Positions 38,563-43,391 of a stretch of DNA of 64,000 nt are shown here, one piece after another. Below the pieces are notes generated by a model. That model was not told the DNA's origin. It saw nothing but the letters and a program-made list of their open reading frames with translations, and ran no database searches. The position numbers and the translations under genes are program-made. Source of the DNA: an uncultured Bacteroidota bacterium (lineage in GTDB: Bacteria; Bacteroidota; Bacteroidia; Flavobacteriales; Flavobacteriaceae); the NCBI GenBank assembly GCA_903842575.1, contig CAIMMM010000154.1, positions 1 to 64,000 of the forward strand, in the 5' to 3' direction. Position 1 is the stretch's first letter, and each line of letters opens with the position of its first letter.

Positions 38563-40281
38563 TTATGCCTTTATTTTTTTGTCTTTGAATAATATTTGGA
38601 AGAGTAAACCAAGAATAATCGTTAATGAAGCTCCTATAAAATTCAACCAAAGATAACCTAGTTTTTCTTGCCCTGTTGGATAAATATGAATGGTGTAATA
38701 ATAGATAAAGAATATGGTAGTTTGGCTAATAACAGCACTAAAAAAAACGGCGTTGGCTTTTATGTATTGTATGTAAAAACCAACTAAGAAAACACCCAAG
38801 ACGGTTCCGTAAAAAATGGATCCTACAATATTTACTAATTGGATTAAGTTTTCAAAGAGTGTTCCAACACATGCAAATAGTATGGCTATTATACCCCATA
38901 GAATTGTAAAATAACGAGTTGCATTTACATAATGCTTCTCTGATTTTTCCTCTTTTAAATTTCTTTTATAAATATCAATAGCTGTTGTAGAGGCTAATGC
39001 TGTTAATCCAGACGCGGAAGATGACATAGCTGCCGAAAGAATTACGGCTAATAAAAGGCCAATTAATCCTGTAGGTAAATAATGTAAAATGAAATAAATA
39101 AATACATAATCTTTATCATTAGTCTCTGCTTTTTCATCCACTTTTGTGATTATTTCCTTGGCTTGATCATGTAAATCGTTTTCTTTTTCTGAGAGTGAAA
39201 TCAATTTTTTTCGAAGAATTGGATTGTCATAATTTTGATTTAAATGGTCAATATAAAGCAAATTAAATTCTTTTTTTTCTTCGGATAAATCCATCAATTG
39301 CTTTTCCAATGCATTGTAATCTTTGGCATAGATGGATTTTTCTATTGCATTTTTATTAACGGGATTGAAATTTAATGGAACGGGATTAAATTGGAAAAAT
39401 ACAAAAACCATCACTCCGGTTAATAGTATAAAAAACTGCATGGGTACTTTTAAAAAACCATTCATGATTAAACCCATTTGGCTTTCTCTATCGGACTTCC
39501 CAGATAAATAGCGGCCAACTTGGGATTGATCGGTTCCGAAATAAGAAAGCATCAAGAAAAATCCACCCGTAATACCACTCCAAAATGTATAACGATTATT
39601 TAGATCGAAAGAGAAATCTAAAATATTCAATTTGTCATTAGCTCCAGCAATATGCATAGCATTGGAGAAAGTCATATCGTTTGGAAGCAAATGTAAAATA
39701 AGGAAAAACGTAATAAACATCCCGCTCATGATGACAAACATTTGTTGTTTTTGGGTAACATTTACTGCTTTTGTTCCACCCACAAAGGTGTAAATCATTA
39801 CCAAAATTCCAATGATAACATTAAGCAAAGTTAAATTCCAACCAAGTATGGATGACAAGATAATGGCTGGAGCATAAATAGTAATACCAGTTCCTAATCC
39901 ACGTTGTATTAAAAATAATATAGCAGTAAAAGAACGCGTTTTTAGGTCAAAACGTTGTTCCAGGTATTCGTATGCAGTAAACACTTTTAGACGATGATAT
40001 ATGGGAATAAAAGTCATGGAAATCACCACCATCGCAATAGGAAGTCCAAAATAAAATTGTACAAACCCCATGCCGTCATGGTAGGCTTGTCCCGGGGTTG
40101 ATAAAAAAGTAATAGCGCTTGCTTGGGTTGCCATTACCGAAAGCCCAACTGTCCACCAAGGTGTTTCTTTATTTCCTAGAATATATTCTTCAACATTTTT
40201 GCTTCCTTTGGTTTTATAAACACCATAGAAAACAATGAAAAGTAAAGTTACTATTAATACAATCCAGTCGAGTTGTTGCAT
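38563..40281 (-). CDS. Sodium:solute symporter
   Basis: SSS-family TM pattern; WWTVGLSVMATQASAITFLSTPGQAY; ALASTTAIDIYKR. Confidence 0.88.
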   Translation of the reverse strand: MQQLDWIVLIVTLLFIVFYGVYKTKGSKNVEEYILGNKETPWWTVGLSVMATQASAITFLSTPGQAYHDGMGFVQFYFGLPIAMVVISMTFIPIYHRLKVFTAYEYLEQRFDLKTRSFTAILFLIQRGLGTGITIYAPAIILSSILGWNLTLLNVIIGILVMIYTFVGGTKAVNVTQKQQMFVIMSGMFITFFLILHLLPNDMTFSNAMHIAGANDKLNILDFSFDLNNRYTFWSGITGGFFLMLSYFGTDQSQVGRYLSGKSDRESQMGLIMNGFLKVPMQFFILLTGVMVFVFFQFNPVPLNFNPVNKNAIEKSIYAKDYNALEKQLMDLSEEKKEFNLLYIDHLNQNYDNPILRKKLISLSEKENDLHDQAKEIITKVDEKAETNDKDYVFIYFILHYLPTGLIGLLLAVILSAAMSSSASGLTALASTTAIDIYKRNLKEEKSEKHYVNATRYFTILWGIIAILFACVGTLFENLIQLVNIVGSIFYGTVLGVFLVGFYIQYIKANAVFFSAVISQTTIFFIYYYTIHIYPTGQEKLGYLWLNFIGASLTIILGLLFQILFKDKKIKA

Positions 40282-40282
40282 A

Positions 40283-40390
40283 CTAAAAGAATATTTGCAT
40301 TAGAATAAAAAATATAGCAATATATATGAAGTTCACAACCAAAACCCAAGTATAACTATTTTTCCAAGTTGATTTGTTTTCTGTTCCCAT
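40283..40390 (-). CDS. 35-aa single-TM small protein between PIG-L deacetylase and symporter
   Basis: Hand translation MGTENKSTWKNSYTWVLVVNFIYIAIFFILMQIFF*; 1-nt gaps to both neighbours. Confidence 0.7.
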   Translation of the reverse strand: MGTENKSTWKNSYTWVLVVNFIYIAIFFILMQIFF

Positions 40391-40391
40391 A

Positions 40392-42890
40392 TTATTTCCC
40401 AATTGCTATCATATTTGCCAATAATCGAAAGGCACCAGGAACGCCTTGGGGCAATTCTCTAAAAAAGCTCAAACCCGTGTAAATATAATTTCCTTTCCCG
40501 TATTTTGCTACTAACAATGCACCATTTTTTGGTGTTTCTCCTTTGTCGTTGGCCGATAGAATAGGAGTGAAGTTAGCATCCCATTCGTTAGGATAATACA
40601 AACCTTGTTCTTGTTTCCAATTTTTAAAATCGTCAATAGTAATTTTATTTGGATAGTTTAAAATGGAATGATCTGGGTTTAGAAAACGAACTTCCACATT
40701 TTCTTCGGTAACTCTATCTCTAGAAATTTTTAATGGAAACGGCGCAATATTTGGCGTTACTAAATCGTCAGTTGTGTTGTATTGAACAATCATTGTTTTT
40801 CCGTTTTTTACAAAATCTAAAAGTATATTTTGTTTGAAAGCAAGTGCATTAACAACATTATAGGCACGAATTCCAGTCATTACAACGTCATAATCAAGGA
40901 GTTTTTCGTTTGTAATTTCTTCTGGTTTTAGGACGGTAACTTCATAACCCATTTGAGTCAAACTCTTAGGAACTTCATCACCAGCTCCCATAATGTAGGC
41001 GATTTTTTCATTCTTGGTTTTAATTTTCAAGCGAATAGCTTTGGCTTCAGCTGTTTTTAAAACCATTTGTTTGTAAATGTGTGGATAATTTATGTCAATT
41101 TTTTCTTTGTCATACGTTTTTCCATCAACAGTTACGATGCTTTTAATATTGATTTCGCTAGCTTCTTTTGATGGAAAAACTGTAAAAACCGCAATAATTT
41201 CTTCCCCTTTTTTAGCTAAAGTAAATGGAATTTCATTAGGTGAAACTTTCCAGCTTTCTGGAATATCAAGTTTTACATTACCTTGAACATTCTCTTTTCC
41301 AGCTTTTACTTTTGCAGTAATTGTTTTACTTCTGTCATTATTGAAAATATAAACTTTTTCAGGAATTGAGGAAGTAACAATAGGAACAATATCTAGCGGT
41401 TGATAAACTTCTCCTTTCACATCATCGGTGTATTTATAAACCACATTTTTTTCAAAAGAAATTTCAATCCCGTTAATTTCAATCCAAAACCCCACTTTTA
41501 CTTGACGTAAAACATCAGGAGTTCCAATTTTTTGTTGGTCATCAACATGATACATTCCAACAGTTCCTTTTTGATTCAGCCAATATGGATTTGTATATTC
41601 AAGTTCATTTGGAAGTTCCAAAGTATTGTTTTCCGTATAGAGAATGTTATTTTTAAGCTCAACTATTTTTTGCTCAGCTTTATAAACAGGAACAGCACCA
41701 ATGCCTTTTAATTTCATAGGTATGTTACTTCTGTTAATCACTTCAATTTTTACTTTTAAAGAACTTCCAGGCGTAGTTTCTTGATTTTCGGCAACAGCTT
41801 CAAGATATAAACCAGCACAAGAACCAATGATTTTTGTGATTTCTTCCGATTTAATATTTTTCCAATGTTCGTCTTCTAGTTTCTGAATTAAATCATAGGC
41901 TTTTACTAATTCTGGAATACTGACGGAAGGATTTTTAAAATCGAAGTTTTTCTCTACATTGTATAAGATATCGCCAATTGCTTTTCCTCCATTTATTCTA
42001 TTCCAAGTGGTATCAATGCCTTCAAAAATATTGGATTTATCGGTAGGCGTTACTCCTTTTAATAATTCTAAATATTCATCTTCTTCTCCTCGAGTACCAG
42101 TAGAACCAAAACCTTGTGATTGGTGACGACTTCTACTCAATGCCGCAATTTCTTGATTTGATTTTCCAACAGATTGATAGTAAACGCCCGTTTTTAAATT
42201 AATTAAGTTGGTTTTATCGGCTTTGTCAAATTTTTCTTTGCTTCCATAAAACCACCAAGATGTATTGAAAAATAAGCGTTTGGGTTGCCAAGTTTTTACT
42301 AATTTTAATTGATTTGGGAATATTGTTACGTCGTTTACTTTGTCGAAAGCTTCTACGCTCAACATGGCTGATGCGGTGTGATGCCCATGTGTTGTTCCGG
42401 GTGAACGATGATCAAATCGATTGATGATAACATCGGGTTGGAATTTTCTAATGGTCCAAATAATATCGCTTAATACTTGATCTTTATCCCAAATATTTAA
42501 TGTTTCATCAGGATTTTTTGAATAACCAAAATCATTGGCTCTAGAAAAAAATTGTTCTCCACCATCAATTTTTCTAGCTTCCATTAGTTCTTGAGTTCTA
42601 ATTAATCCTAGAAGTTCACGCAATTCTGGACCTATAAGATTTTGCCCTCCATCGCCTCTAGTTAATGATAAATAGCCAGTTCTAGCTTTCTTTTCATTAG
42701 ACAAATATGAAATTAACCTCGTATTTTCATCATCGGGATGTGCAGCAATATAAAGGACAGAACCTAAGAAATTGAGTTTTTGTATTTGATTGTAAATTTC
42801 AACAGCATTTGGTTTTTGAGGTTGCTGTGATACTACAATTTGAAAGGATAGAAGAAAAATAATGAAAGGACAATAGAAAAGCTTTTGCAT
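40392..42890 (-). CDS. PIG-L family deacetylase (large, exported)
   Basis: SVLYIAAHPDDENTRLISYLSNEKKARTGYLSLTRGDGGQN; signal peptide. Confidence 0.9.
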   Translation of the reverse strand: MQKLFYCPFIIFLLSFQIVVSQQPQKPNAVEIYNQIQKLNFLGSVLYIAAHPDDENTRLISYLSNEKKARTGYLSLTRGDGGQNLIGPELRELLGLIRTQELMEARKIDGGEQFFSRANDFGYSKNPDETLNIWDKDQVLSDIIWTIRKFQPDVIINRFDHRSPGTTHGHHTASAMLSVEAFDKVNDVTIFPNQLKLVKTWQPKRLFFNTSWWFYGSKEKFDKADKTNLINLKTGVYYQSVGKSNQEIAALSRSRHQSQGFGSTGTRGEEDEYLELLKGVTPTDKSNIFEGIDTTWNRINGGKAIGDILYNVEKNFDFKNPSVSIPELVKAYDLIQKLEDEHWKNIKSEEITKIIGSCAGLYLEAVAENQETTPGSSLKVKIEVINRSNIPMKLKGIGAVPVYKAEQKIVELKNNILYTENNTLELPNELEYTNPYWLNQKGTVGMYHVDDQQKIGTPDVLRQVKVGFWIEINGIEISFEKNVVYKYTDDVKGEVYQPLDIVPIVTSSIPEKVYIFNNDRSKTITAKVKAGKENVQGNVKLDIPESWKVSPNEIPFTLAKKGEEIIAVFTVFPSKEASEINIKSIVTVDGKTYDKEKIDINYPHIYKQMVLKTAEAKAIRLKIKTKNEKIAYIMGAGDEVPKSLTQMGYEVTVLKPEEITNEKLLDYDVVMTGIRAYNVVNALAFKQNILLDFVKNGKTMIVQYNTTDDLVTPNIAPFPLKISRDRVTEENVEVRFLNPDHSILNYPNKITIDDFKNWKQEQGLYYPNEWDANFTPILSANDKGETPKNGALLVAKYGKGNYIYTGLSFFRELPQGVPGAFRLLANMIAIGK

Positions 42891-43001: not shown

Positions 43002-43391
43002 TCATTCTGTAGCTGCTGTTTGGTTCATAAATCGGCCTTTTGAATTATAAGGATATAATTTTTTGTGAATTTTTAGAAACTGTTGTGGATTTTCTTCCTC
43101 ATAATTTGTAATAGCAACTCGTGCTTTATTAAATAAAGAGTAGCCTCCATAATTTTGAGGAAGTTCAGCAGCAGTTTGCCATTTACCACTCATCTGGTAA
43201 TAATATACATTTTTCAAATTATCATAGTAGGCAAATAAATTTGGAAAATAGGAATAGCGAAGTTGACAATTTGTTTTTGGATCAATTGGCAATGAGGGTT
43301 TATCATAGCCTGGTGGCGGTGGTGCTTGCGCAATAGATGAATAGCAAGCTAATAGTAGTATCAGTAGGAATACAATTTTAGTTATTTTCAT
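43002..43391 (-). CDS. Exported hypothetical protein
   Basis: Signal peptide followed by APPPPGYDKP; 129 aa. Confidence 0.6.
   Translation of the reverse strand: MKITKIVFLLILLLACYSSIAQAPPPPGYDKPSLPIDPKTNCQLRYSYFPNLFAYYDNLKNVYYYQMSGKWQTAAELPQNYGGYSLFNKARVAITNYEEENPQQFLKIHKKLYPYNSKGRFMNQTAATE

Follow-up and report, generated by a model that had tools for sequence, protein, structure and literature searches.

A 35-residue single-helix membrane protein encoded beside a sodium:solute symporter in Bacteroidota: a candidate accessory subunit

In the window analysed here (the whole stretch of 64,000 nucleotides, from an uncultured member of the Flavobacteriaceae), a gene for a PIG-L family deacetylase and one for a sodium:solute symporter follow each other on the minus strand, with a short open reading frame, termed S35, between them. 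This arrangement raises the question of whether S35 encodes a protein at all and, if so, which of its two neighbours that protein serves and in what manner.

A short reading frame selected as protein

S35 occupies positions 40283..40390 of the minus strand, stop codon included; it opens with an ATG at 40390, reads MGTENKSTWKNSYTWVLVVNFIYIAIFFILMQIFF and closes with a TAG at 40285-40283. The TAA stop codon of the PIG-L gene ends at 40392 and is followed on this strand by a single T and then by the ATG of S35, and a single T also lies between the TAG of S35 and the ATG of the symporter gene at 40281. The encoded peptide has a polar and basic N-terminus, followed by a single hydrophobic helix. 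A preliminary description of the locus had reported a frame 1 nt from the PIG-L stop and 1 nt from the symporter ATG, with a polar N-terminus and one hydrophobic helix, and both observations were confirmed in the nucleotide and peptide sequences. It had also remarked that the frame is shorter than a 60-aa cutoff, which is correct for the ORF lister used.

Selection on S35 was analysed in 15 same-genus (Flavobacterium) copies of equal length, which align without gaps. The pN/pS ratio was 0.245 in frame, as compared with 1.07 and 1.06 when the reading of these bases was shifted to the other two frames, and pN was lower than pS in 105 of 105 species pairs; the ratios are approximate, synonymous sites being almost saturated. 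By comparison, pN/pS was 0.117 over codons 1-35 of the symporter gene. Thus S35 evolves faster than the symporter, yet it is clearly under purifying selection as a protein. The preliminary description had named frameshift or loss in close relatives as a test of the gene, and the frame was found intact in 16/16 genomes of the same genus and in the loci of 80/80 named relatives, and nearly all relatives have the ORF with its start and stop codons matching in register. S35 is short, and ORFs of 35 aa are frequent in the AT-rich sequence here, but a chance ORF within an intergenic gap is refuted by its pN/pS, its phylum-wide conservation and its co-occurrence with the symporter, which leave that reading a negligible probability; S35 is a genuine gene, far beyond chance.

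Distribution of S35 and its symporter

The gene downstream of S35 (38563..40281, minus strand) encodes a 572-aa sodium:solute symporter of the SSS/SLC5 family, with an SSF domain and the SSS fold (Pfam SSF, 142 bits; TIGR00813, 236 bits). Its nearest structural neighbour in Foldseek was the sialic acid symporter SiaT (5nva, TM-score 0.87), followed by NIS, SMCT1 and SGLT. The closest named relatives of this symporter belong to Flavobacterium species and are up to about 90% identical, which places the window in that genus. S35 was directly upstream of the symporter gene in all 80 loci taken from its closest named relatives, Tenacibaculum among them; two of the 80 (L260 and L272) were judged by eye.

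Of 201 genomes from the family, 174 gave a match when searched with the single S35 sequence (E up to 10), and the order PIG-L, S35, symporter was seen in each of the first 30 loci inspected. Among loci from further genera with weaker scores, S35 directly preceded the symporter in about 76 of 79, and at the level of the order and the phylum its consensus could be written as (K)PP(L/F)F..W..WY.LVL..L...I.LFY.(F/I)T..F. When 297 Bacteroidota genomes were searched by profile, both genes were found in 100, the symporter only in 16, S35 only in one and neither in 180. S35 was thus carried by 100 of the 116 genomes bearing the symporter as against 1 of the 181 without it, a co-occurrence for which the Fisher p of 1e-60 is descriptive only, the genomes being related and the profile having been built from symporter-linked copies. 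In the sole genome with S35 only, PIG-L and S35 are present and the start of the symporter gene is broken.

Several of the 16 symporter-only genomes contain divergent S35 candidates that the profile had missed (L107, L144, L148, L151 and L154). A recognisable S35 was not found beside the symporter in L101, L150, L156, L159, L174 and others; since several genomes carry the symporter without it, S35 is not strictly required everywhere. In one genome with a single contig, a second S35-symporter pair is located near the other end of the contig (L124, G605:C1:18258-22158), where the S35 is identical and the symporter copy has two in-frame stops.

Helix face and proposed role

Conservation along S35 in 47 diverse members was most strongly periodic at 100 degrees (permutation p = 1.5e-4), and covariation within the peptide was highest at i+4. 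The conserved residues lie on one side of the helix, namely W9, Y13, V16/L17, N/L20, I24, F27, T/M31 and F34, in the pattern W..Y..V...N/L...I..F...T/M..F. The stretch from W9 to V25 or A25 (40316..40366, minus strand), delimited by the conservation period and the AlphaFold2 helix, contains the start of this face (W9, Y13, V16/L17, N20 and I24), which extends past it to F27, M31 and F34. AlphaFold2 was applied to a tethered chain, artificial in that the S35 stop codon and one base were read as Gly to join the two proteins, and the model was read for confidence and secondary structure only; S35 formed a helix at residues 11-33 with moderate confidence (about 56-60), and the SSS fold was recovered. 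To judge from sequence, one-faced conservation of this type is the pattern expected where a transmembrane helix packs against a partner protein that is itself conserved.

We consider it probable that S35 serves, Bacteroidota-wide, as a single-helix accessory subunit to SSS (SLC5-like) symporters of one orthologous group. Its N-terminus, which is basic and often K/P-rich, probably faces the cytoplasm according to the positive-inside rule, and its helix would bind the symporter by packing along it via the face W9-Y13-V16-N/L20-I24-F27-T/M31-F34. In a stabilising or activating role, S35 would thereby help the symporter to fold, to stay in the membrane or to transport, in the manner of MAP17 on human SGLT2. 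Coevolution of S35 with the symporter, analysed over 235 pairs (effective number about 92), gave no consistent contact site, as the top pair was 31-220 by mean-field covariance and 17-154, at a different place and depth, in a tree-aware recount.

For some transporters, folding and function depend on a small accessory subunit; SGLT2, a major drug target, depends on MAP17 in this way. MAP17 (PDZK1IP1) is a single helix that contacts TM13 of SGLT2 (SLC5A2) and is essential for its stability and robust activity (PMC10803289). S35 likewise has one transmembrane helix and is genetically linked to a symporter of the SSS/SLC5 fold, and is in this sense of the same functional kind, although MAP17 is larger and eukaryotic, and binding to TM13 is established for MAP17 only. 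The S35 profile retrieved no PDB chain at E<=10 in a search that included the SGLT2-MAP17 entries, and so gave no sign of sequence homology to MAP17. S35 and 28 diverse relatives had no convincing match in Pfam or NCBIfam, where the best hits were at chance level (E at least 0.002), and a description of S35 was not found in the open-licence papers searched. We regard S35 as a putative new and uncatalogued family of small membrane proteins, of a kind (the small subunits of symporters) that is already known, and we infer its physical association with the symporter.

If this reading is true, S35 would fill a gap in the gene lists of a large share of Bacteroidota genomes. Occurring phylum-wide on a bacterial symporter that shares the fold of SGLT2, its single helix would also offer a simple, genetically tractable test system for what such a partner does. 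Tentatively, one may go further and suppose that the transporters of this Bacteroidota group are obligate two-part systems, made up of the catalytic SSS protein and a conserved single-helix subunit of 30-45 residues. With such a symporter, bacteria would have arrived independently at an arrangement like MAP17-SGLT2, one missed because the smaller gene falls below annotation cut-offs. Heterologous expression of the large symporter protein alone would then fail or mislead, a caution for anyone expressing it without S35.

The resemblance of S35 to two other families of small membrane proteins was also assessed. DUF4212 (PF13937) is encoded directly upstream of SSS symporters, in Flavobacteriaceae as well (e.g. 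L193), and its first helix opens with a YWKxNL stretch similar to S35. However, DUF4212 proteins are longer, at about 85 aa; they contain two hydrophobic stretches and carry a strong GGFxLGFWFAQQG motif, which S35 ends before reaching, and they adjoin symporters of the VC_2705 type, a different subfamily; the symporter of the window scored 62.5 bits against TIGR03648 (VC_2705 type), for which the cut-off is 320.75. No S35 member matched PF13937. Homology between the two was not supported: their W-rich starts can be aligned by eye, but the profile-profile score was 12.5 with an hhalign probability of 1.1%, and several of 60 column-shuffled controls outscored the true alignment. A further small membrane protein whose gene is linked to that of an SSS symporter is DUF485 (PF04341; YjcH, encoded ahead of the acetate symporter ActP), which has about 100 aa and two helices where S35 has only one. 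It occurred in just 3 of 148 Bacteroidota sampled, and none of the S35 members tested matched PF04341.

Single-helix peptides of 28-50 aa such as AcrZ, MgtS, MgtU and MgtR bind and modulate transporters, according to excerpts of PMC10710835. S35 could on this model be a regulator, a membrane peptide that tunes the activity of the symporter or else targets it for proteolysis or protects it, like MgtS, MgtU and MgtR; its size and single helix match the class as presented in those excerpts, and its loss from some genomes that keep the symporter would suit a modulator. Peptides of this kind need not share an operon with their targets, however, whereas S35 almost always shares the operon of the symporter and is lost along with it, which a constant subunit fits better. 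A regulatory role thus appears unlikely. The partners of these peptides given in the excerpts belong to the RND pumps and the P-type ATPases, or are PitA, and no single-helix peptide for an SSS symporter is among those described there.

It is far less likely still that S35 is one of the symporter's own transmembrane helices turned into a separate gene, in effect a split 14th helix. Such an origin would account for its being encoded nearly always just before the symporter, and the N-in, C-out topology expected of S35 would be compatible with the N-out start of the symporter. Against this, the SSS fold of the symporter is complete, including a first helix of its own that aligns to SiaT from residue 10 onward; no natural S35-symporter fusion was found among the loci inspected, and no extra N-terminal helix was seen in paralogues.

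Linkage to the symporter and operon context

The spacing of 1 nt on both sides of S35 in the window, together with the ATGA overlaps of many relatives, could also be read as the mark of a cis-acting leader ORF, the translation of which merely couples the expression of PIG-L and symporter. Five genomes (loci L397-L401) bear on this possibility. In four of these, all from one genus (G361, G372, G387 and G428), S35 is about 15 kb from the symporter and behind a WbqC-family gene, and in the fifth (G588) it is 108 kb away and behind a DUF1569 gene; two of the five (G372 and G588) were checked and have no S35 upstream of the symporter. At distances of 15-108 kb a leader or coupling device is unworkable, and the protein product of S35 must therefore matter; S35 can thus act in trans, and the translational coupling suggested by the preliminary description is not its only purpose. 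As its amino-acid sequence is also conserved phylum-wide with a one-sided helix pattern, and as it is kept where PIG-L is absent, a role as leader ORF is hardly tenable. In the four genomes of one genus, S35 directly adjoins, end to end, a gene for a dicarboxylate-type (DASS-like) transporter, and a change of partner is possible there.

The remaining candidate partner is the PIG-L deacetylase itself, encoded at 40392..42890 of the minus strand (832 aa; Pfam PIG-L, 51.5 bits), the N-terminus of which resembles a signal peptide. Its gene is usually found next to S35 on the upstream side. On this basis S35 might be thought to serve in its membrane anchoring or secretion. However, the gap between S35 and the symporter is mostly from -4 to +3 nt, with an ATGA overlap at 29 loci, and that between S35 and PIG-L ranges from an overlap up to many hundreds of nt. 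PIG-L is separable from the pair. Three Flavobacterium loci (L229, L231 and L232) have S35 and the symporter but no PIG-L, and there the pair is directly preceded by the mechanosensitive-channel, Maf and HAD genes that are upstream of PIG-L in the window. An unrelated lipoprotein-like gene replaces PIG-L beside the pair in five Tenacibaculum loci (L244, L245, L248, L257 and L258), and many loci from other classes have the pair with no adjacent PIG-L. Conversely, PIG-L and symporter lie side by side in L150, L156, L159 and L174, where S35 is missing from between them. Four genomes were surveyed for their 22 symporter genes, and S35 accompanied 4/4 cognate genes and 0/18 paralogous ones, one of the latter having a DUF4212 small subunit in the position of S35. 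The partner of S35 is thus the symporter and not PIG-L, and service to the deacetylase, largely refuted by the PIG-L-free loci, retains only a very slight probability. This association supports the earlier guess of an accessory protein for the symporter, which S35 would presumably be by binding it.

PIG-L enzymes deacetylate N-acetylated amino sugars. In two loci of one family (L403 and L404), the symporter is beside nagB and a short PIG-L gene, the nagB of L403 scoring above the NCBIfam cut-off. Given the function of PIG-L and this adjacency to nagB, import of amino sugars is plausible, and the substrate of the symporter may be an amino sugar, as these neighbours faintly suggest.

Just upstream of PIG-L in the window, a gene at 43002-43391 (minus strand) encodes a 129-aa protein with an apparent signal peptide, which matched no Pfam family at cut-off; this gene is also absent from the site in the three PIG-L-free Flavobacterium loci, a natural deletion. 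In seven loci from two families of the same class (L109, L114, L119, L130, L132, L134 and L141), PIG-L and S35 are separated by a second small ORF, which is 52-65 aa long and has two hydrophobic stretches. Two copies of it were searched and had no Pfam or NCBIfam match, and it may represent another overlooked small membrane protein of the operon.
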